Assembly: GCF_000186245.1 (NCBI RefSeq)
Contig: NC_014935.1
Location: 62,001 to 126,000 of the forward strand
DNA: 64,000 bases
Reading direction: 5' to 3'
Source: Nitratifractor salsuginis DSM 16511
GTDB taxonomy: Bacteria > Campylobacterota > Campylobacteria > Campylobacterales > Sulfurovaceae
Shown: in pieces, positions 13,711 to 28,666 of the stretch
How positions within the stretch are numbered: the stretch's first letter is position 1
How the letters are laid out: each line of letters opens with the position of its first letter
Position numbers and translations under genes: made by a program
The notes under the pieces: generated by a model
Seen by the model: only the letters and a program-made list of their open reading frames with translations
The model's database searches: none
What the model was told of the DNA's origin: nothing

Positions 13711-14328
13711 ATGGACGGGGAAGTGAAAAAAAAGCAGCCCGGAGAGAAAAAGGAGCGGAGGCGGCTCGAGATCATCACCGGAGCGCTCAAGCTCTTTGCC
13801 CGGAAGGGGTTTTACGCGACGACCATCCCCGATATCGCCCGCTCGATCGGGATGAGTGTGGGGAACCTCTATAACTACTTCAGCTCCAAAGAGCTTCTGG
13901 CGCAGGCGATCATCCGCCATATCTCCGCGCAGCTGGGAGCCAAGATACGTGTCGTGAATGAGAGTGACCTTTCCAGCCGGGAAAAGATCGAGAAGATCGT
14001 TACGATCTATTTCGAAACGGCGCAAAAGGAGCCGGAGATGATCGACTTTTTTTTGCGAATCTACCTCTCCAATCGGGAAGTGTTCCGTGAAGGGTGCGAG
14101 GGGATGATCTGTGTCAACGAGTTTGTCACGGAGATCATGATCTTTTTCGATGACGGCGTCGCCAGGGGAGAGCTGAGGAATCAGGACTTCTTCAGTGCCT
14201 TCGGGCTCTTTATGGGGTATCTTGGAGGGATGGTCTTCCTGGCGGGTGAAGCGATCTTGCCCAAGCCGCTGGAAGCCTATGTCGATGAGATCTCCACCAA
14301 TATCTACCGCGCCCTCAAGGCGGAATAG
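13711..14328 (+). CDS. TetR/AcrR-family transcriptional regulator, coupled to a hydrogenase
   Basis: Typical 205-residue TetR protein. The N-terminal HTH (about 15-65) reads EIITGALKLFARKGF, then TIPDIARSIGMSVGNLYNYFSSKELL. The C-terminal helical domain would bind a ligand or partner. Its stop overlaps the GTG start of the hydrogenase small subunit by one base (TAGTG), so the regulator and the two hydrogenase subunits form one operon. A TAAAAT box lies near 13679. I infer that it binds the shared palindrome TGAATGAYYATTCA upstream of hydA and nikM, but nothing here proves that. No copy of the palindrome precedes its own gene. Confidence 0.9.
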   Translation: MDGEVKKKQPGEKKERRRLEIITGALKLFARKGFYATTIPDIARSIGMSVGNLYNYFSSKELLAQAIIRHISAQLGAKIRVVNESDLSSREKIEKIVTIYFETAQKEPEMIDFFLRIYLSNREVFREGCEGMICVNEFVTEIMIFFDDGVARGELRNQDFFSAFGLFMGYLGGMVFLAGEAILPKPLEAYVDEISTNIYRALKAE

Positions 14329-15197
14329 TGCGCCTGCTCTGGCTCTCCGCACTCACTTGCAACGGCAACGCCCACTCGCTGCTCAACTACCCCAACCTCC
14401 GGAATTGGCAAAAAGATTTCGAGTGGCTCTACCATCCCCTTTTGCCCTCCCGCTATACCTTCAAGGAGATCGAAGAGGGGATCGAGGGGTGTGAGGTTCT
14501 GATCGTCGAGGGAACCTTCAGTGAGGAGCTTGTCAAATATCGTCAACCCTTCAAAGCGCTAGTGGAGCGTTACGGAGCGCAAGCGCGGCATATCGTGACG
14601 GTGGGGACCTGTGCCGCTTTCGGCGGTATTTTCGCCCAGGGAGAGGAGGGGCGCAGCGGCCTCTTCTTCCGCGGGGAGGAGCCGACGGAGACCTTCGAAG
14701 CGCTCCGCTCCAAAAGTATCAACCTGCCCGGATGCCCGATCCAGCCGGAAGTGCTGGTGGGGACCCTGGCGCTGCTCAAAGCGGGAGAGACTCTGCCCCT
14801 GGATAGGCTGCGCCGTCCCAAATACTACTACGCCTATACGGTTCACAACGGCTGCACCCGCAACGAGTATTTCGAATACAAGATCGACGAGCACCGTTTC
14901 GGAAGTCTGGAAGGGTGTATGTTTTACGAGCACGGTTGTCAGGGGACTTTTACCCACGGCAGCTGCAACAAGATCCTCTGGAACGGCCTCAACTCCAAAA
15001 CCCGCAACGGCCAACCCTGTATGGGGTGCACCGAACCCGATTTTCCCCGGATGGGCTTGTGGACAACCCAAAAACATATGGGAATCCCCGCCCGCCTGCC
15101 CGTAGGCGTGCCCAGACGGGCCTATCTCTCCCTGGCAGGCATCGCCAAAGCCTTCCGTATCGAGCGCTTTTACAAGCCGCTGATGGAGGAGGAGTGA
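14328..15197 (+). CDS. Cytosolic [NiFe] hydrogenase small subunit (group 2/HupU-like)
   Basis: Carries the FeS chain of a soluble [NiFe] hydrogenase. The 289 residues have no Tat signal and no C-terminal membrane anchor, so the protein should stay in the cytoplasm, as in group 2 (sensory or cyanobacterial-type) enzymes. Recognisable cluster regions are TCNGNAHSLL near 11-19, VGTCAAFGG, LPGCPIQP, and the distal/medial motifs around CMFYEHGCQG, GSCNKILW and CMGCTEPDFP. The residue usually Cys in CxxC of the proximal site is Asn (CNGN). The GTG start overlaps the TetR stop by one base. Sensor or enzyme is undecided. Confidence 0.88.
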   Translation: MRLLWLSALTCNGNAHSLLNYPNLRNWQKDFEWLYHPLLPSRYTFKEIEEGIEGCEVLIVEGTFSEELVKYRQPFKALVERYGAQARHIVTVGTCAAFGGIFAQGEEGRSGLFFRGEEPTETFEALRSKSINLPGCPIQPEVLVGTLALLKAGETLPLDRLRRPKYYYAYTVHNGCTRNEYFEYKIDEHRFGSLEGCMFYEHGCQGTFTHGSCNKILWNGLNSKTRNGQPCMGCTEPDFPRMGLWTTQKHMGIPARLPVGVPRRAYLSLAGIAKAFRIERFYKPLMEEE

Positions 15198-16465
15198 TGG
15201 GGCGCACACGGACACGGTTGGAATTGATCGAAAAGATCGAAGGGGAGGCGCAGGTTCTTTATGAGTATGAAGGGGACCGGATCGCCTTTGCCCAGATACG
15301 CTTCGCCAACAGCCGCCACATCGAAAAGATCCTCGTCGGGCGGGACCCGATGGATGCCCTGAGCATCAATCCGCGCGTCTGCGGGATCTGCGGGCACGCC
15401 CATCTGATCGCTACGGTGCGGGCGCTGGAAGCCTGCTATGATGAAATCCGGCTCAGCGACAAGGCAAAGGCGATCCGGGAGATGACCCTGAGCCTGGAAC
15501 TGATCCAGAACCACTTTAAATGGTTCTATTTGACGATTCTGCCCCTTTTGGGGCTCGAGGCCCCCATCGAGCGGGCGCTGGAGCCCTCCCGCCTGGCCGG
15601 GGAGATGATCGCCCTGATGGCGGGGCAGTACCCCCACAACAGCTATGCGATCCCGGGAGGGATCAGCGGAGAGATCACTCCGGTGGATCTTTTCGAATTC
15701 ACCCAAAGACTCGATCGGCTCAAAGAGCTCTTCCGGCGCTCGCTTATCGATGTGGATCTCGACACTTTCGTTCGGTGTGACCGGATCGAAGTGATGCTCG
15801 CCAAAGAGGGGGATCTCCCCCGTGCAATGCAGACCATTTTGGATAGAGGCTATGAGAGGCTGGGACAGAGTCTGGATCGCTTCATCGTCTTCGGCGGCGG
15901 CCTCTTTCAGCCGGGGAAATCGATCGGAACCCGCATTAGAGAATCGATCGATCTACGCTATCTCAAAGAAGAGGCGGTCGAAAAGAGTGCCGCAAGACGG
16001 GTGCACTATCGAAACCAATATTACGAGACAGGCCCTTTGGCCAGGGCGATGGTGATGAAAACCCCGCTGATCCGTGAAGCCCACCGCCGCTATAAAGATT
16101 CTCTCTTCAGCCGTATTCTGGCCAGGATCTGCGAAATCCCCAGGCTCCTGGACTACCTCGAAACCCTGTGTCGGAGCATCGATCTCTCCGAAGAGGCCTA
16201 TATCGATCCGGGCCCGATCCCCGCTGAAGGGCACGGCGCAGGCATTGTCGAAGCGGCGAGAGGATCGCTGGTGCATCAAATCTCCATCCGGGAGGGCAAG
16301 ATCGCCGCCTACCGGATCACCACCCCTACCCAGTGGAATCTGGGGAACGGCACCCGCGAAAATCCCTGTCCGGCCCAAAAGGCCCTGATGGGGCTTCATC
16401 GGGATGCTCCGGCAGAGCTGGTTTTCAAAGCCTTCGATGTCTGTTCCGTCTGTACGACGAAATAG
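15197..16465 (+). CDS. Cytosolic [NiFe] hydrogenase large subunit without maturation tail
   Basis: Catalytic subunit, 422 residues, short for the family. L1 motif RVCGICGHAH lies near 62-71. The L2 motif is DVCSVCTTK and the protein stops three residues after the last ligand Cys. The usual DPCxxCxxH plus cleavable peptide is absent. Family knowledge: regulatory hydrogenases such as HoxC also lack the tail and need no endopeptidase. The ATG overlaps the small-subunit stop by one base (TGATG), with GGAGGAG before it. The Pro-to-Val and His-to-Thr changes in L2 are seen directly. Confidence 0.88.
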   Translation: MGRTRTRLELIEKIEGEAQVLYEYEGDRIAFAQIRFANSRHIEKILVGRDPMDALSINPRVCGICGHAHLIATVRALEACYDEIRLSDKAKAIREMTLSLELIQNHFKWFYLTILPLLGLEAPIERALEPSRLAGEMIALMAGQYPHNSYAIPGGISGEITPVDLFEFTQRLDRLKELFRRSLIDVDLDTFVRCDRIEVMLAKEGDLPRAMQTILDRGYERLGQSLDRFIVFGGGLFQPGKSIGTRIRESIDLRYLKEEAVEKSAARRVHYRNQYYETGPLARAMVMKTPLIREAHRRYKDSLFSRILARICEIPRLLDYLETLCRSIDLSEEAYIDPGPIPAEGHGAGIVEAARGSLVHQISIREGKIAAYRITTPTQWNLGNGTRENPCPAQKALMGLHRDAPAELVFKAFDVCSVCTTK

Positions 16466-16509
16466 CTGGTCCGTTTTATAAATAGGAATTAGAAAGAATT
16501 ATCGAAAAC

Positions 16510-17555
16510 GAGCTAAAGCGGTTTTTCGGGTTGCTAAAAATCCTTTAAACCTTCGGTAATATGGTGCCTAAAAAGGACTTTTTTACAGATGGCTTGTAAA
16601 AAAGTGCCCTATCTGTGGTTCAAAAGCGACGAAAAAGAATGGTAAAAGAGCAGGAATTCAGCGCTATTTTTGCCAAAGTTGCCGGCAGAGCTTCTCTTCT
16701 CGTAGACGTCCCTCCCGCCTCAGAAAACGACTCTTTACTGCCTACTTCTATGAGCACCAAACCCTCAAAGCCTTATCCCGGACCTATCATAAGGATCGGG
16801 AGTGGATTCAACGTCAGATTCATAGCTATGAACCGCCAAAGACTTCACCACATCCCAGACCGGTCACTTTGGTTATCGATGCGACATTCTTCGGAAAACG
16901 GGGAGAGGGCTTTGGTGTTCTTGTAGCTAAAGATATCCTGAGTGGCCAACTGGTAGCGTATCGTTTCATTCAGACTGAGACGCTCAATGAATATGCGATG
17001 CTTCGGCAAAGCCTTCTGGATCAGGGCTTTATCATCCAGGCCGTCACCGTCGATGGCCGACGGGGATTGTTTGGGCTCTTTGCCGACCTTCCGGTTCAAA
17101 TGTGCCATTTCCATCAACAAGCCATTCTCACTCGTTATCTGACGCGCAGACCTACCTATCAAGCCTCTAGGGATCTCAAGCGTATCGCTTCCTATCTTGG
17201 ACAGACAACCCCCTGCCGTTTCCGCTATATGCTGGAAGCCTGGCTCCAACGGCACAAAGATTTCTATGAAGAAAAAACCCCTGACGATTCTCCACGTGGA
17301 TGGCATTACACCCATGATCGACTCCGCTCGGCCTATCGAAGTCTTGAACGCAATCTTCCTTATCTCTTCACGTATAAAACCCATCCTCATCTTGGCATAG
17401 CCAATACAACCAATACTTTGGATGGTGGACTCTTCTCTCCTATGAAAGCTTTATTGAAAATCCATCGGGGTATTGGAGACTCTATGAAGAAGAAACTCAT
17501 CACTGATTTCCTAGAAAAAGCAATGAAATAGCAACCCGAAAACCCGCTTTAAGTC
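16510..17555. mobile_element. 1046-bp insertion sequence, IS256/Mutator-like
   Basis: Ends are 27-bp terminal inverted repeats matching at 24 of 27 positions (left 16510-16536, right 17529-17555, both reading to TTTTCGGGTTGCTA inward). The element is flanked by an 8-bp direct repeat TCGAAAAC at 16502-16509 and 17556-17563, the target duplication length of IS256-type elements. It contains one transposase frame. It sits between the cytosolic hydrogenase operon and the hydA promoter, leaving that promoter intact. Confidence 0.9.
16589..17531 (+). pseudogene. IS256/Mutator-like transposase, frameshifted at an A6 run
   Basis: The start MACKK is read from 16589, but the body of the protein lies in the +1 frame. 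If the six A bases at 16598-16603 were five, one frame would run from MACKKCPICGS (zinc ribbon, CxxC..CxxC) through VIDATFFG (first Asp), TVDGRRGL (second Asp), QMCHFHQ (C..H motif) and NTTNTLDGG to the stop at 17531, about 313 residues. The body frame has no start codon of its own between its upstream stop and the zinc ribbon. It is therefore a one-base disruption, a sequencing error, or slippage-dependent expression. Confidence 0.75.
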
Positions 17556-17609
17556 TCGAAAACTAAGAAAAGTGAGCCTTATTTAAGGGATATTTCAATC
17601 GGTGCCCCA

Positions 17610-17633
17610 TAAAATAGTGAATGATTATTCACT
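17610..17633 (+). promoter_or_regulatory. hydA promoter -10 and overlapping operator palindrome
   Basis: TAAAAT at 17610-17615 is followed immediately by the palindrome AGTGAAT-GATT-ATTCACT (17616-17633), then GGAGGT at 17635-17640 and the hydA ATG at 17646. A protein bound here would cover the transcription start. The core TGAATGATTATTCA differs from the nikM site only in its two central bases. Confidence 0.75.
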
Positions 17634-23384: not shown

Positions 23385-25685
23385 ATGAGAGCAAAGATCG
23401 CCAAAACCCTTCGCATCCGGGGGATCGTCCAGGGGGTTGGTTTCCGCCCCTATCTCTACCGTCTGGCCAAAAGATACGGCCTTAATGGTTTCGTCCGAAA
23501 CGATGAGCGGGGAGTCGAGACGGTCATCGAAGGGGAAGCGGCGGCGCTCGAAGCCTTTTTGCAAGCTCTGAGCGCAGAGCTGCCTCCCCTGGCCCGTATC
23601 GACGGGATGGAAGTGCACGAAATTCCCGCTGCGGGCTATGAAAGCTTTGAGATCCTCTCCTCACACTCCTCCTCCGACAAATCTACGGCCGTCAGCCCCG
23701 ACATCGCCCTTTGCGACGCCTGCCTGGCGGAAATGCGTGACCCTTGCAATCGGCGTTTCGGGCATCCCTTCATCACCTGTACCGATTGTGGCCCCCGTTA
23801 CTCCATCATCCGCACCGTCCCCTACGACCGGCCCAATACTTCGATGGCGCGATTCCCGATGTGCGACAAATGCCGCGCCGAGTATGAAGACCCTGCCAGC
23901 CGCCGCTACCACGCCCAGCCCATTGCCTGCCCGGAATGCGGGCCGGTTTTGCAGTTTTGGCGCAAAACGGGGATGGAAAAGGGGAGATGGGAGGTGGAGG
24001 ACGGAGAGCAGGGCAGTTTAATTGAAAAAGCGGCCAAGATGATTCGGGAAGGGAAGATCGTCGCCGTCAAAGGATTGGGCGGATTCCATCTGGTCTGCGA
24101 CGCGAGCAATGCCGAGGCGGTTGCCGCTCTGCGCCGCCGCAAGCGCCGCCCCTCCAAACCCTTCGCCGTAATGGTCAAAGATCTGGCGATGGCACGTTCT
24201 CTGGCGCAGATCGATGCCGGAGAGGAGGCGCTTCTTCGCTCCAAGGAGCGCCCGATCGTTCTGCTGAAAAAGGCCGATCCTTACCTCTCCGCTATCGTCG
24301 ACGATCCGATCGCTCCGGGGATTGACCGAATCGGCTTGATGCTTCCTTATACCCCGCTGCACCATCTATTCTTTGACTTCCTGGATGTTCCGCTGATCGC
24401 TACCAGTGCCAACCTCAGCGATGAGCCGATCATCCGCGAGGGCAAAGAGCTTCGGGAAAAGCTGGGAGGGGTGATCGACGCCGTGCTTGACCACAACCGG
24501 GAGATTGTCAATGCCTGTGACGACAGCGTGGCACAGATCGTCGCCGGCAGAGTACAGTGGCTGCGGGTGGCCCGGGGGATCGCCCCCTTGACACTCCAAC
24601 TTGACAAAACGATTGACAAGCCGATGCTTGCCGTAGGGGGCAACCAGAAAAACACCCTGGCTTTGGCCTTTGAGTCGAAGATCGTTCTCAGCCCCCATAT
24701 CGGGGATCTTGGAACGCTTGAAGCGATGGAGTATTTCGACAGGACCGTAAAAACCTTCGAGCGTTTCTACGATTTCAAGCCTCAGATCATCCTCTGCGAT
24801 CTTCATCCGCGCTACGAGAGCCGCCGATGGGCGGAGCGCTATAAAGCCAAGAATCCATCCGTCGAGCTTCACAGCCTCCAGCACCACTACGCCCACGCCC
24901 TGGCCGTGATGGCGGAGCACAATTGGCGCAGCAAGGCGCTGGCGATCGTCTGGGACGGCACCGGATACGGCAGCGACGGGACGATCTGGGGCGCGGAGGC
25001 GCTGCTTTGTGATGCCGGGAGTTTCGATCGGGTGGCGTCGCTGCGCCCCTTTCGCCTCCTGGGGGGCGAGAGGGCGACCCGGGAGCCGCGGCGTGTCGCC
25101 CTGGCGATGCTTTTTGAACTCTTGAGTCTGGAGGAGGTGCTGGCGCTTGACAGTCCTACTGTGGCCGCTTTCAAACCCCGGGAGATCCGCCTGCTCCACC
25201 AAGCCTGGAAACGGGGGGCCAACGCTCCCCTGGCCAGTTCTATGGGGCGGCTCTTCGATGTGTTTGCTTCCCTGACGGGGCTCTGTCAACATCTGGGTTA
25301 TGAAGGAGAGAGCGGATTGCGCCTGGAGGCCGAGGCGACCCGGAAGTCTATGAGGGGAGACGCGGGAGAGCTTCTGACTTTGAGGGAGGGCCAGATCGAT
25401 TGGGAACCGCTCCTGAAGCGTCTGATTCGAGGAGAATCTGTCTCGGCAAGCGCCTTCATTCACGCCCTGGCGGAATCGATCGTCAAGATCGCTGAGCGCT
25501 ACCCCGATCTTCCCGTGATTCTCTCCGGCGGGGTCTTTCAAAACAAAACGCTTCTGGAGCGTGTTTTGCCCCTGCTAAAGAACCGCGAAGTCCTTTTGCC
25601 GAGGCAGGTTGCGCCCAATGACGGGGCCATCGCCCTGGGGCAGGTATGGTGGGGGGTTAGCGGCTGCGGCGCATCAACTCCATAA
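23385..25685 (+). CDS. hypF: Carbamoyltransferase HypF
   Basis: Makes the thiocarbamate on HypE from carbamoyl phosphate, the source of the cyanide ligands. The 766 residues have the expected order: acylphosphatase (about 5-90, RGIVQGVGFRPYLYRLA), two zinc fingers (CDACLAEM..CTDCGPRYS and CDKCRAEY..CPECGP, about 105-185), YrdC-like domain (about 205-390) and Kae1-like domain with HHYAHALAVM and LSGGVFQN. It begins 17 bases after hydE, with weak ribosome-site sequence. Confidence 0.97.
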   Translation: MRAKIAKTLRIRGIVQGVGFRPYLYRLAKRYGLNGFVRNDERGVETVIEGEAAALEAFLQALSAELPPLARIDGMEVHEIPAAGYESFEILSSHSSSDKSTAVSPDIALCDACLAEMRDPCNRRFGHPFITCTDCGPRYSIIRTVPYDRPNTSMARFPMCDKCRAEYEDPASRRYHAQPIACPECGPVLQFWRKTGMEKGRWEVEDGEQGSLIEKAAKMIREGKIVAVKGLGGFHLVCDASNAEAVAALRRRKRRPSKPFAVMVKDLAMARSLAQIDAGEEALLRSKERPIVLLKKADPYLSAIVDDPIAPGIDRIGLMLPYTPLHHLFFDFLDVPLIATSANLSDEPIIREGKELREKLGGVIDAVLDHNREIVNACDDSVAQIVAGRVQWLRVARGIAPLTLQLDKTIDKPMLAVGGNQKNTLALAFESKIVLSPHIGDLGTLEAMEYFDRTVKTFERFYDFKPQIILCDLHPRYESRRWAERYKAKNPSVELHSLQHHYAHALAVMAEHNWRSKALAIVWDGTGYGSDGTIWGAEALLCDAGSFDRVASLRPFRLLGGERATREPRRVALAMLFELLSLEEVLALDSPTVAAFKPREIRLLHQAWKRGANAPLASSMGRLFDVFASLTGLCQHLGYEGESGLRLEAEATRKSMRGDAGELLTLREGQIDWEPLLKRLIRGESVSASAFIHALAESIVKIAERYPDLPVILSGGVFQNKTLLERVLPLLKNREVLLPRQVAPNDGAIALGQVWWGVSGCGASTP

Positions 25686-26367
25686 GCTTTTCAAAACATT
25701 CTTCGCCGTAATTGAATTTGAACTCCGCCTCTTTGAGGTAGTAGATGAAATTCTCCCGTTTGATCCCCCGATAGTTTTTCATAAAGTGATCGAAATAGCG
25801 CCGGAAGGCTTCGATGGTATTCTCCCGGCTTTCGAGTTTCGCGATCCGGTGAAAGATGAAAAAGCGGGAGAACTCTTCCCAATACTGTTCATAGAGCCCG
25901 TCGTCGATCAGGGGCTGCTTGTAGCGCTCCAGTGAAGGCATCAGAATGTTGTAGACCCGCTCTCCGTAGGCGAAGGTGAGGAAGTTCTGCGCTTCAAAGA
26001 TGTGGCGCTTGTCGCGGCGTTTGTTGTGATCGAGGTAGAGAGTCTTTTCATACTGGCTTACCCGGTCTCTGGCCGCTTCGTAATCACTTTCGAGCACTCC
26101 AAGCAGGCGTTGGCGAAGGCGCTGGTAGAAATTGAGGGCGGTGAGATAGTTCACCCCAAGCCTTTCGGCCGCCTCTTTGGCGCTTTGGTCTCGGCAAAAG
26201 GCGTGGGCCAGGGCCAATTGACGCTTCAGTTTCCCGGGGGCGTAGCGTTTTCGGCATTTTTTACACTGCACGCGCCCGTCGCCCAATCGGTTCAACGCTG
26301 AGCCGCAGTAGAAGCATTCTTCAGAAATATTTGGTCCGTTTTCTATAGAGGAGTGCTCACTTTTCAT
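25657..26367 (-). CDS. Zinc-ribbon/HTH protein resembling a transposase N-terminus; possible regulator
   Basis: 236 residues from the Met at 26367. The N-terminus has two CxxC pairs (CFYCGS..CKKCRKRY, about 17-44), followed by a helical segment SAKEAAERLGVNYLTALNFYQRLRQ that looks like the HTH of IS1595/ISXO2-type proteins. No DDE catalytic core follows; the rest is charged helical sequence. No terminal repeats flank it. It is divergent from nikM, and the shared operator lies between them, so it may regulate or be regulated with nickel import. Convergent overlap of 29 bases with the hypF 3' end. An upstream in-frame Met at 26415 lies inside the operator and is less likely. Confidence 0.7.
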   Translation of the reverse strand: MKSEHSSIENGPNISEECFYCGSALNRLGDGRVQCKKCRKRYAPGKLKRQLALAHAFCRDQSAKEAAERLGVNYLTALNFYQRLRQRLLGVLESDYEAARDRVSQYEKTLYLDHNKRRDKRHIFEAQNFLTFAYGERVYNILMPSLERYKQPLIDDGLYEQYWEEFSRFFIFHRIAKLESRENTIEAFRRYFDHFMKNYRGIKRENFIYYLKEAEFKFNYGEECFEKLMELMRRSR

Positions 26368-26388
26368 CCTTCTTTTATCGTAGCGCGT

Positions 26389-26418
26389 TATAATAAATCG
26401 CAACTGAATGACCATTCA
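26389..26418 (+). promoter_or_regulatory. nikM promoter -10 and operator palindrome
   Basis: TATAAT at 26389-26394 and, 10 bases later, the palindrome TGAATG-AC-CATTCA (26405-26418), which with its flank matches the hydA site except for two central bases. AAGGAG at 26429-26434 precedes the ATG at 26440. The palindrome also lies upstream of the divergent zinc-ribbon gene's likely promoter. Confidence 0.75.
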
Positions 26419-26439: not shown

Positions 26440-27084
26440 ATGCATATCCCCGACGGCTATCTCTCTCCGGCAACGGTGGTGCTGACTTATGCGGTGGCTG
26501 TTCCGTTGTGGATCACGGGCTTCAAGAGACTCCGCCGGGAACTCAACGAAGAGACGCTGCCGCTTATCGGTGCTTTGGCGGCACTCAGTTTTATCATTAT
26601 GATGTTCAATATTCCGATCCCGGGAGGGACCAGCGGTCATGCGGTCGGTGCGGCGTTAATCGCCATCCTCTTCTCTCCCTGGGTCGCCTTCGTGGCCGTT
26701 TCCCTGGTCTTGCTGATCCAGGCCCTGCTCTTTGGGGATGGAGGGATCAGTACCTTCGCCGCCAATGCTCTTTCGATGGCTTTTGTGGGCTCCTTTGTCG
26801 GCTATTATGTGTTTACCTGGCTCAAAAACCGCTCCTATGCCCCGTTTGCGGCGGGCTGGAGTGCACTGGTCGCCTCGTCGGTGCTGACAGCCTTTTTGCT
26901 GGGAATCCAGCCTATCTTTTGGCATCAGGGGGCCCAGCCGCTCTATTTCCCCTTCTCTTTGCGGGTGACCTTTCCGGCTTTGGTGCTACCGCATATGCTG
27001 TTTTTCGGAGTGGCCGAAGGGATTTTCACCGCGCTGGTCTATCGCTATCTGCACCAAAAAGAGCTCGGGGAGAAGGCGGCGTGA
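26440..27084 (+). CDS. nikM: Nickel ECF transporter substrate-specificity subunit NikM
   Basis: Binds the metal for an energy-coupling-factor importer. The 214 residues begin MHIPDGYLSP, the family hallmark in which Met1-His2 forms the Ni/Co site, so the start is certain. Six or so transmembrane helices follow, with GGTSGHAVGAAL and FGDGGISTFAANALSMA, both family motifs. CbiM homologues carry cobalt, but the separate nikN gene and the adjoining hypB favour nickel. First gene of nikMNQO-hypBCDEXA. Confidence 0.93.
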   Translation: MHIPDGYLSPATVVLTYAVAVPLWITGFKRLRRELNEETLPLIGALAALSFIIMMFNIPIPGGTSGHAVGAALIAILFSPWVAFVAVSLVLLIQALLFGDGGISTFAANALSMAFVGSFVGYYVFTWLKNRSYAPFAAGWSALVASSVLTAFLLGIQPIFWHQGAQPLYFPFSLRVTFPALVLPHMLFFGVAEGIFTALVYRYLHQKELGEKAA

Positions 27085-27392
27085 AACAAAGGCTCATCCT
27101 CGTAATTTCGCTTTTGGCGGCGGCGGTTCCCCTGGGCATTTTGAGCGACGCGTCGGCCTGGGGAGAGTGGGAAAAGGACTATTATAAAAAGATTTTGGGT
27201 TTCGTCCCGGAGGGGATGAGACATTTCGGCGGGATCGATGCCCCTCTTTCGGATTATGGTGTTTCGGGTCTGGGGCAAACCGCAGGATATTATCTCTCGG
27301 CGATTGTCGGGACCGTGGCGGTCTTTGCGATGATGATGCTCATCGGAAGATGGATGCTCAGAAAGGAACGTCGCAACGATGTGGAGAGATAG
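27081..27392 (+). CDS. nikN: Nickel ECF transporter accessory subunit NikN
   Basis: 103 residues with one N-terminal and one C-terminal hydrophobic helix and a soluble segment between. The middle has SDASAWGEWEKDYYKKILGFVPEGM, the pattern of PDGLE/NikN-CbiN-like proteins, then GLGQTAGYYLSAIVGT. Starts with GTG overlapping the nikM stop (GTGA) and overlaps nikQ by 14 bases. Confidence 0.85.
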   Translation: MKQRLILVISLLAAAVPLGILSDASAWGEWEKDYYKKILGFVPEGMRHFGGIDAPLSDYGVSGLGQTAGYYLSAIVGTVAVFAMMMLIGRWMLRKERRNDVER

Positions 27393-27924
27393 GCTTTTTT
27401 TCCCGGCGGCGGTGCTGGGCCTTTTGATCCTGAACGACGCCGGAGTCCTGGCGGCACTCATCGCTCTTTTGTGGATAGTTTCGCACAACAGTTTTTTCCG
27501 AATCAACCGTCGGGTCCTCGCGGGGATTTTCTGGTTCAACGGAGTGACCTCCGCCGGCTATGCCCTGGTCGCATCACTGAAAGGGGTGCCCTTCGCGGGA
27601 TATCTGCTGCTTTTCAACCTGAAGGTTTATGCCATCAGCTATTTCGTGCTCTGGTTCTTTTCGCGTGTCGACCTGGTCAAGTTTTTCGCCTTCAGCCGCG
27701 ATCTGAGCTATCTTTTGACCATCACCCTTTTTCATATGACGACCTATAAAAAGAGTTTCGAAGATTTCCGGATGGCTTATCGTGCCCGTGTCGTGCGTAA
27801 ACTTCGCCGGCAGGAAGAGGGGTTCATTCTGCGCGTTTTTGACTTTTTCCTGAGCAAAGCGATGCGTGATGCCAAAGAACGGACATTAGCGATGAAAGCG
27901 AGGGGCTTTTTTGATACGGTGTGA
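27379..27924 (+). CDS. nikQ: ECF transporter transmembrane coupling subunit (CbiQ/NikQ-like)
   Basis: 181 residues with about four or five hydrophobic segments and a basic C-terminal cytoplasmic helix. YRARVVRKLRRQEEGF and ERTLAMKARGF occupy the place of the coupling helices with ARG-type motifs that contact the ATPase. Shorter than typical CbiQ (about 225-250), so it is a reduced or divergent version. Overlaps its neighbours on both sides, indicating one operon. Confidence 0.8.
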   Translation: MWRDRLFFPAAVLGLLILNDAGVLAALIALLWIVSHNSFFRINRRVLAGIFWFNGVTSAGYALVASLKGVPFAGYLLLFNLKVYAISYFVLWFFSRVDLVKFFAFSRDLSYLLTITLFHMTTYKKSFEDFRMAYRARVVRKLRRQEEGFILRVFDFFLSKAMRDAKERTLAMKARGFFDTV

Positions 27925-28666
27925 GTCGATGGCTTTTGCCTACGAAGAGCGACAGGTGATCGAAAGCCTGAGTTTTGGAATCGAGCCGGGAGAGAAGGTG
28001 GCGCTTCTGGGGTGCAACGGCAGCGGAAAATCGACGCTTTTGCGTCTGTTGGCCGGGCTCTATCTCCCCAAAGGGGGCCGATATTTTTTCCAAAACAAAA
28101 AGATGGACAAGAAGCGCATCGATGCCTCGATCCGTTCCCAGATAGGTATTTTGTTCCAAAATCCGGAGAGTATGCTTTTCAACCCGACGGTCTTCGATGA
28201 AATCGCCTTTTCCCTGCGGGAATTCGGATACGACGATATCGAGCGGCGTGTGGAGGAGATCGCCGAACAATTCGGCCTCGAAGAGTTGCTCGGACTCAAT
28301 CCCCTCAAACTCAGCGGCGGAGAGAAGCAGAAAGTGATGCTCGCCGCCATTCTTGTTTACGGACCGGATCTGTTGTTGCTGGATGAGCCGACGGCGGCGA
28401 TGGACCCGGCCACCACCGGATGGTTTATCGATCAGCTGCTGGAGTGGCAGACGACACTGGTGCTGGCCACCCACGATTTGAGTGTCGCTTACGAGACCTG
28501 TGAGCGGGCCTTGGTCTTGGCTCCCGGGGGACAACTGCTCTACGATGGGCCGATGGAGCCGCTTTTGAAAGATTATGACTTGCTGGTCAAAGCCAATCTC
28601 ATCCACAAGCACCGACACCGCCACAAACGGTTTATCCATTCCCATTATCATCTACACGAAGGATAG
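27911..28666 (+). CDS. nikO: Nickel ECF transporter ATPase NikO with His-rich tail
   Basis: ABC ATPase powering nickel uptake. Walker A GCNGSGKST (about 36-44), Q-loop FQNPESMLF, signature LSGGEKQKVMLA, Walker B LLLLDEPTAAMDP and H-loop THD are all intact. The TTG at 27911 is preferred because IRCESMAFAYEE forms the first strand; an ATG six codons later is the alternative. The last 20 residues, HKHRHRHKRFIHSHYHLHEG, are strikingly histidine-rich and may bind nickel at the cytoplasmic face. Confidence 0.93.
   Translation: MIRCESMAFAYEERQVIESLSFGIEPGEKVALLGCNGSGKSTLLRLLAGLYLPKGGRYFFQNKKMDKKRIDASIRSQIGILFQNPESMLFNPTVFDEIAFSLREFGYDDIERRVEEIAEQFGLEELLGLNPLKLSGGEKQKVMLAAILVYGPDLLLLDEPTAAMDPATTGWFIDQLLEWQTTLVLATHDLSVAYETCERALVLAPGGQLLYDGPMEPLLKDYDLLVKANLIHKHRHRHKRFIHSHYHLHEG

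Follow-up and report, generated by a model that had tools for sequence, protein, structure and literature searches.

An IS1595-derived protein as a probable regulator of nickel uptake in Nitratifractor salsuginis and other Campylobacterota

Transcription factors derived from DDE transposases exist in eukaryotes. In bacteria, the TldR proteins are described, in the accessible portion of the source, as RNA-guided transcription factors exapted from TnpB (PMC13418256), and host recruitment of transcription factors from mobile elements has been reviewed, in the accessible part with Xre/Ner and antitoxin helix-turn-helix (HTH) proteins as examples (PMC8987985); 'DDE' and 'IS1595' are absent from the main text of that review. 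Literature searches, with most subscription journals outside their coverage, returned no bacterial nickel or hydrogenase regulator derived from IS1595 or any other transposase, and the searchable literature held no description of nickel-uptake control in Campylobacterota lacking NikR. The gene presented here is in a 64,000-nucleotide stretch of Nitratifractor salsuginis DSM 16511 (contig NC_014935.1, positions 62,001 to 126,000), referred to as the window. It stands in a NiFe-hydrogenase cluster, between hypF and nikMNQO-hypBCDE-hoxX, and is transcribed in the opposite direction to nikM; apart from nikM and nikO, the genes of the cluster are named by position and general knowledge. The product is quite likely a domesticated transposase serving as a DNA-binding regulator of nickel uptake through a 25-bp element, to which its binding is predicted from sequence.

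Descent of this protein from an IS1595 transposase, followed by domestication, is close to certain. An earlier reading, made from the sequence alone, had noted the open reading frame correctly: on the minus strand the frame is open, and the forward-strand reading of the interval is interrupted by stops. The start is probably M17, giving a protein of 236 aa, because an AAGAAGG ribosome-binding sequence precedes that ATG and alignments with orthologues start from about there. When compared by hhalign with a profile of eight genuine IS1595 transposases of the same bacterial family, the regulator aligned with a probability of 99.4 and an E value of 1.2e-21 over 184 columns (55-240 against 18-226). 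The alignment spans the HTH, the core and the C-terminus, and the regulator is therefore a whole transposase rather than the N-terminal remnant, with no catalytic core, that the sequence-only reading had proposed. Of 38 aligned orthologues, 35 are recognized by the IS1595 transposase model of NCBIfam (best E 1.6e-9), counting matches with E up to 0.1 as for all Pfam and NCBIfam member counts. The window protein scores 25.9 bits on this model, below the curated cut-off of 75, and a Pfam scan placed it in no family above cut-off and found no NikR C-terminal domain (PF08753).

Relative to genuine IS1595 transposases, the core has lost about 30 residues. At the positions we take to be catalytic, the first Asp is retained in 32 orthologues and replaced by E in four (including the window protein) and by N in two; the segment that holds the second acid is missing from the alignment with genuine IS1595 proteins; and the third position is N in 21, S in 13 and T in four. 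A complete DDE/DDN set is not present and, judged from these residues, the regulator is catalytically dead. Invariant among the 38 are the four Cys of the CxxC...CxxC pattern already recognized in the sequence-only reading, together with G201, Y210, K212, E213, E215 and N219. The HTH proposed in that reading is borne out by the IS1595 HTH match and by an AlphaFold model (mean pLDDT 89) in which it is well formed. Searched against solved structures with Foldseek, the model had no match at E 0.001. VIA-align returned HTH-only matches up to Z 7.1 and weak, broad matches to the Hermes transposase (about 130 residues, Z 5.3-5.9). As no structural relative stood out clearly from these searches, the case for an RNase-H core is made from sequence profiles. 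PHROGs returned just weak, nameless matches.

In a survey of 175 genomes of the family to which the window belongs (Sulfurovaceae), 60 matched the regulator, of which 48 were counted as orthologue-bearing; the other 12, with weak matches, contain genuine IS1595 transposases or pieces thereof. Among species genomes, 106 loci were confirmed by search, and the 80 that were kept come from Nitratifractor, Hydrogenimonas, Sulfuricurvum, Nitratiruptor, Sulfurospirillum, Sulfurimonas, Arcobacter, Nautiliaceae and others; they are almost all Campylobacterota, one record being titled just Proteobacteria. Two genuine IS1595 transposases (L040, L041) were excluded from the orthologue counts. Entries present in both genome sources were counted once for the figures of 102 loci and 77 promoters, but not for that of 91 out of 100. 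A nickel carrier is encoded within 6 kb in 80 of the 102 distinct loci, a hyp gene in 92, and one or the other in 100; the two loci without either are on contigs of 6.2 kb and 3.4 kb. The gene neighbours of orthologues had been set beforehand as the refutation test, and with this result the association with nickel genes was not refuted. The divergent neighbour is in most cases a NiCoT-like carrier (HAFGPDH motif), in some NikM, in one HupE, in a few a NikK-like protein with NikM, and in Sulfurospirillum hypB itself; four different kinds of nickel carrier are found beside orthologues.

There is a single copy of the gene in the N. salsuginis genome (one contig, 2,101,285 bases). No inverted repeats bracket it, both reported inverted pairs having one arm inside the gene, in agreement with the absence of flanking repeats reported previously. 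Single copy, conserved neighbourhood, intact frame and absence of mobility signals are the marks of domestication, and the earlier suggestion of a domesticated, transposase-derived protein tied to nickel and hydrogenase genes is upheld by IS1595 homology, single copy and synteny. Genuine IS1595-type transposases found in relatives (L130, L131, L041) have no zinc ribbon and have GGGTC-like ends. Such ends resemble TTTTAGGGAC over too few bases to make the 25-bp element a relic of an IS1595 terminal repeat, and this idea was rejected. In two genomes lacking the regulator gene (L151, 5183-5431; L163, 10955-11203), hypF is separated from the nickel carrier or hypB by a gene whose product was named by eye as a small CDGSH-like iron-sulfur protein.

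Upstream of Sulfurovum-like orthologues, the block TTCTACTCTATTTTARGGACTAAA is found before the -10. In many of these the ATG is a few bases past TATAAT, which suggests a leaderless mRNA. With up to three mismatches the block has 33 sites in 29 of the 175 genomes, 30 at the promoter of the regulator and three elsewhere. The three off-gene sites all precede a nikK-nikL-...-nikM operon, the NikK of which is found in just those three of the 175 genomes (NikL by NCBIfam). This rare operon, nikK-nikL-(outer-membrane-like protein)-nikM, is at 563-2627 of L236, 482-3172 of L234 and 552-4582 of L235, in all cases with the element. A 25-bp matrix was grown from the TTCTACTCTATTTTARGGACTAAA sites, with the 99 % level of shuffled controls as threshold; the first matrix set left out L035, L032 and L071 (truncated or 5′-incomplete), loci repeating a family genome were left out, and hydS promoters were not used in its building.

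The resulting element at nickel-carrier promoters, consensus TTTCTTATATATTTTAAGGACTAAA, is present in 83 of 100 gene-proximal regions, including those of Sulfuricurvum, Sulfurospirillum, Nitratiruptor, Arcobacter and Nautiliaceae. When the regulator is 0.9-4.3 kb from the carrier gene, as in Sulfuricurvum and others (L252, L254, L255, L260, L262, L264, L274, L259), the element remains at the carrier promoter. Of distinct NikM/NiCoT promoters, 70 out of 77 in gene-bearing genomes have the element, as against none of 18 in gene-less genomes (91 out of 100 against none of 18 with duplicates retained); the gene-less set comes from a NiCoT search in 50 chosen of 127 gene-less genomes, 18 of which matched. 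The distance from the element to the -10, placed at whichever match to TATAAT was best 25-45 bp past the element, is 34 bp in 48 of the 70 and 37 bp in 12. On the NiCoT tree, the regulator changes at least six times on supported branches and, in six independent tree pairs, the element goes with the gene in an average of 5.1, with no pair in the opposite direction. In the window the site beside nikM still ranks first with a matrix lacking the genus of the window. Here the regulator frame has extended across the element, which encodes its N-terminal ENGPN stretch; in most genera the element overlaps the promoter of the regulator itself. A porin-like gene beside nikM with its own element copy (L255, 5930; L052/L285) is a candidate nickel porin.

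Several observations weigh against regulation by this protein through the element. In G106, an 87 % complete assembly, the element is present at nikK and the regulator gene was not detected. Seven of the 77 gene-bearing promoters have no scoring element, and the highest-scoring gene-less promoter (G121) falls just short, at 9.8, of the threshold of 9.9. Gene-bearing loci supplied the training set of the matrix, and the margin with the genus-free matrix is small (8.1 against 7.0). The paired tree test has just six pairs, with a median p of 0.0625. At loci with gene and carrier in divergent orientation, a deletion of the gene can physically take the element with it. The four Cys of the ribbon are the sole invariant soft-metal ligands, and there are no obvious further ligands for nickel.

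The coordinates of the features in the window are collected below.

Features of the window discussed in the text, in window positions (strand: +, forward; -, reverse;., none assigned).
Feature	Position	Strand	Basis or remark
TetR-family regulator, likely owner of the palindrome	13711..14328	+	Pfam TetR_N 5.5e-16; orthologues in 73/175 genomes
Second element copy	16465..16489	-	Second-best window position; relatives of the genus carry the element adjoining hydS
Insertion sequence, IS256 Zn-variant transposase	16499..17562	+	Imperfect terminal inverted repeats; between element and hydS
Second palindrome TGAATGATTATTCA	17618..17631	.	Just before hydS
IS1595-derived regulator candidate	25657..26367	-	236 aa from ATG 26365-26367
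Same open reading frame, longest reading	25657..26415	-	ATG 26413-26415, 252 aa
Degenerate IS1595 DDE/RNase-H core	25705..26058	-	hhalign; Pfam DDE_Tnp_IS1595 in 23/38 members
HTH and linking helix	26074..26238	-	AlphaFold helices 44-58, 63-70, 74-98; NCBIfam IS1595 match
Zinc ribbon, C18-C21...C35-C38	26254..26316	-	All four Cys in 38/38 aligned sequences; Pfam Zn_ribbon_IS1595 in 7/38
Element copy, proposed regulator binding site	26330..26354	-	Best-scoring position of the 64-kb window; 34 bp before nikM -10
TATAAT, likely nikM -10	26389..26394	+	Sequence; 34-bp element spacing as in 48/70 element-bearing promoters
Palindrome TGAATGACCATTCA, likely TetR operator at nikM start	26405..26418	.	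Two such sites in the 2.1-Mb genome
nikM, CbiM-type nickel/cobalt carrier, proposed target	26440..27084	+	Pfam CbiM 1.2e-60
nikN, nikQ, nikO	27081..28666	+	Operon order; nikO, ABC ATPase; nikN/nikQ by position and homologues in relatives

The element has a rival owner if another regulator binds it and the transposase-like protein accompanies it, as neighbour or partner, through gain and loss. Joint loss is possible where gene and element physically overlap, as they do in most genera, and the element of G106 has no detected regulator gene to go with it. Element and gene, however, stay together even when kilobases apart and over several independent changes, and the TetR palindrome, which is equally close, has been retained in eight of the 18 gene-less promoters, whereas the element is in none; an owner other than the regulator is therefore improbable. 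A HypA-like zinc-ribbon metal handler, i.e. a hydrogenase or nickel accessory protein that does not bind DNA, would suit the location among hyp genes and the four invariant Cys. It would not suit the full-length transposase homology, the well-formed HTH or a promoter element that tracks the gene, and is extremely unlikely. The IS1595 homology is also what would be seen if a mobile or decaying transposase were there by chance, but the gene is single-copy, keeps its place in many genera with its frames intact, has no bracketing repeats and has lost the catalytic set, which leaves this a negligible probability.

The palindrome TGAATRNNYATTCA offers another candidate site, with the regulator as a repressor binding it, and the sequence-only reading had placed an operator in the promoter gap. 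There are two exact matches in the N. salsuginis genome, at 17618 (hydS) and 26405 (the nikM gap), with none for the reversed control; both are at nickel or hydrogenase promoters. The exact palindrome is found somewhere in 46 of 48 gene-bearing genomes, against 51 of 127 gene-less ones. In the gene-less genomes G121, G162, G015 and G167, however, it is before NiCoT with hypF adjoining and no regulator gene in between, and it also precedes hydS in gene-less genomes. Likewise, it is absent from the gap of the gene-bearing genomes G029 and G140, both of which also lack a TetR orthologue match. The shape of the palindrome suits TetR proteins. Six of the eight gene-less genomes with a palindrome-bearing NiCoT promoter have a TetR match (G162, G121, G174, G167, G015, G170) and two do not (G120, G116). 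On the same tree pairs as the element, the palindrome goes with the regulator gene in 3.0 and against it in 0.4. A palindrome is present in the gap, but it is probably not the operator of the regulator, because it occurs in gene-less genomes and the TetR gene beside hydS is a better candidate; as the site of a regulator acting as repressor it was rejected, and that reading is very unlikely. The palindrome probably belongs to the TetR protein, as judged by these occurrences, and the two copies, at 17618 and 26405, may possibly be the operators of a repressor system that responds to hydrogen. The TetR gene is followed by a second NiFe hydrogenase small/large pair (HupSL-like; 13711-16465 in all), just upstream of the main hydrogenase operon. 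Tandem palindrome copies 44-45 bp apart are seen upstream of hydS in many relatives: L096, L099, L100, L102, L149, L150, L153 and L172.

If the regulator acts through the 25-bp element, its HTH, assisted by the zinc ribbon, would most likely recognize the element some 34 bp ahead of the -10 in promoters of NikM-, NiCoT-, HupE- and NikK-type carriers, or of hypB directly. In the genus of the window, the promoter of the uptake hydrogenase operon would be an additional target. From the element the protein may touch RNA polymerase and activate the carrier genes. The constant distance at which the element precedes the -10 suggests activation, which is modestly favoured over repression. Autoregulation is suggested because the element overlaps the regulator's own promoter. 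The outcome would be the classic divergent layout of regulator and target; the promoter gap common to regulator and nikM, described in the sequence-only reading, is indeed there. The signal would be nickel shortage or hydrogenase demand, and direct sensing of nickel by the regulator is doubtful.

Among 27 hydS promoters scanned, the element is at three, all in the genus of the window. It is also in five of six further stretches that have hydS at the palindrome (G036, G040, G038, G045 and G028; not G047), of which G045 was already among the three and G028 is a different genus. In the window, an insertion sequence separates the second element copy from the hydS promoter, and this insertion between an element and a hydrogenase promoter is a natural experiment. 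The front part of its IS256 Zn-variant transposase is in another frame (16615-16926).

No genome of the 175 in the family has the NikR C-terminal domain PF08753 above the curated cut-off; the search control was positive in five of 14 named genomes. Sulfurospirillum multivorans is reported to have NikR and, in the accessible part of that account, NikR is the sole regulatory protein named for its membrane hydrogenase and a TetR-like repressor is upstream of hupSL (PMC5357620). The idea of this regulator instead of NikR therefore fails for the phylum as a whole. A broader proposal would be a phylum-wide group of metalloregulators born from a DDE transposase, which sense nickel by the ribbon Cys or the emptied catalytic pocket, have replaced NikR in much of the Campylobacterota, and use an element that came from an ancestral IS terminal repeat; this is speculative and rather unlikely.

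The hydrogenases of H2-oxidizing Campylobacterota from vents, aquifers and sediments depend on nickel. The family presented here provides a candidate regulator, with a defined site on the DNA and a set of targets. If true, this would be an instance in bacteria of a transcription factor made from a DDE transposase, of which the accessible part of the recruitment review gives none (PMC8987985).

With the IS1595 transposases (ISXO2-like; NF033547, PF12762/PF12760) the regulator has in common the zinc ribbon, the HTH, the order of the core and a C-terminal KE.EF.FN block. It differs in being far below the curated cut-off, without the second catalytic acid region, in single copy, without terminal repeats and with fixed neighbours. 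NikR, a nickel-responsive repressor or activator of the ribbon-helix-helix type, is alike in the role proposed here, control of nickel uptake and in some species of hydrogenase, although the two are unrelated in fold and sequence. TldR is similar as a transposon protein that has reportedly lost its nuclease to become a bacterial transcription factor; it is a relative of RNA-guided nucleases and is said to be phage-encoded, whereas the regulator comes from a DDE transposase with its own HTH. Recruited mobile-element regulators likewise put a mobile DNA-binding protein to use in host regulation, but the examples in the accessible part of the review are Xre/Ner and antitoxin HTH proteins. The eukaryotic cases also have a dead DDE transposase as transcription factor, and differ in host and transposase families. 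Exapted mobile-element proteins are therefore already known as bacterial transcription factors, from TldR and Xre/Ner; what is unusual here is the DDE source and the proposed job.

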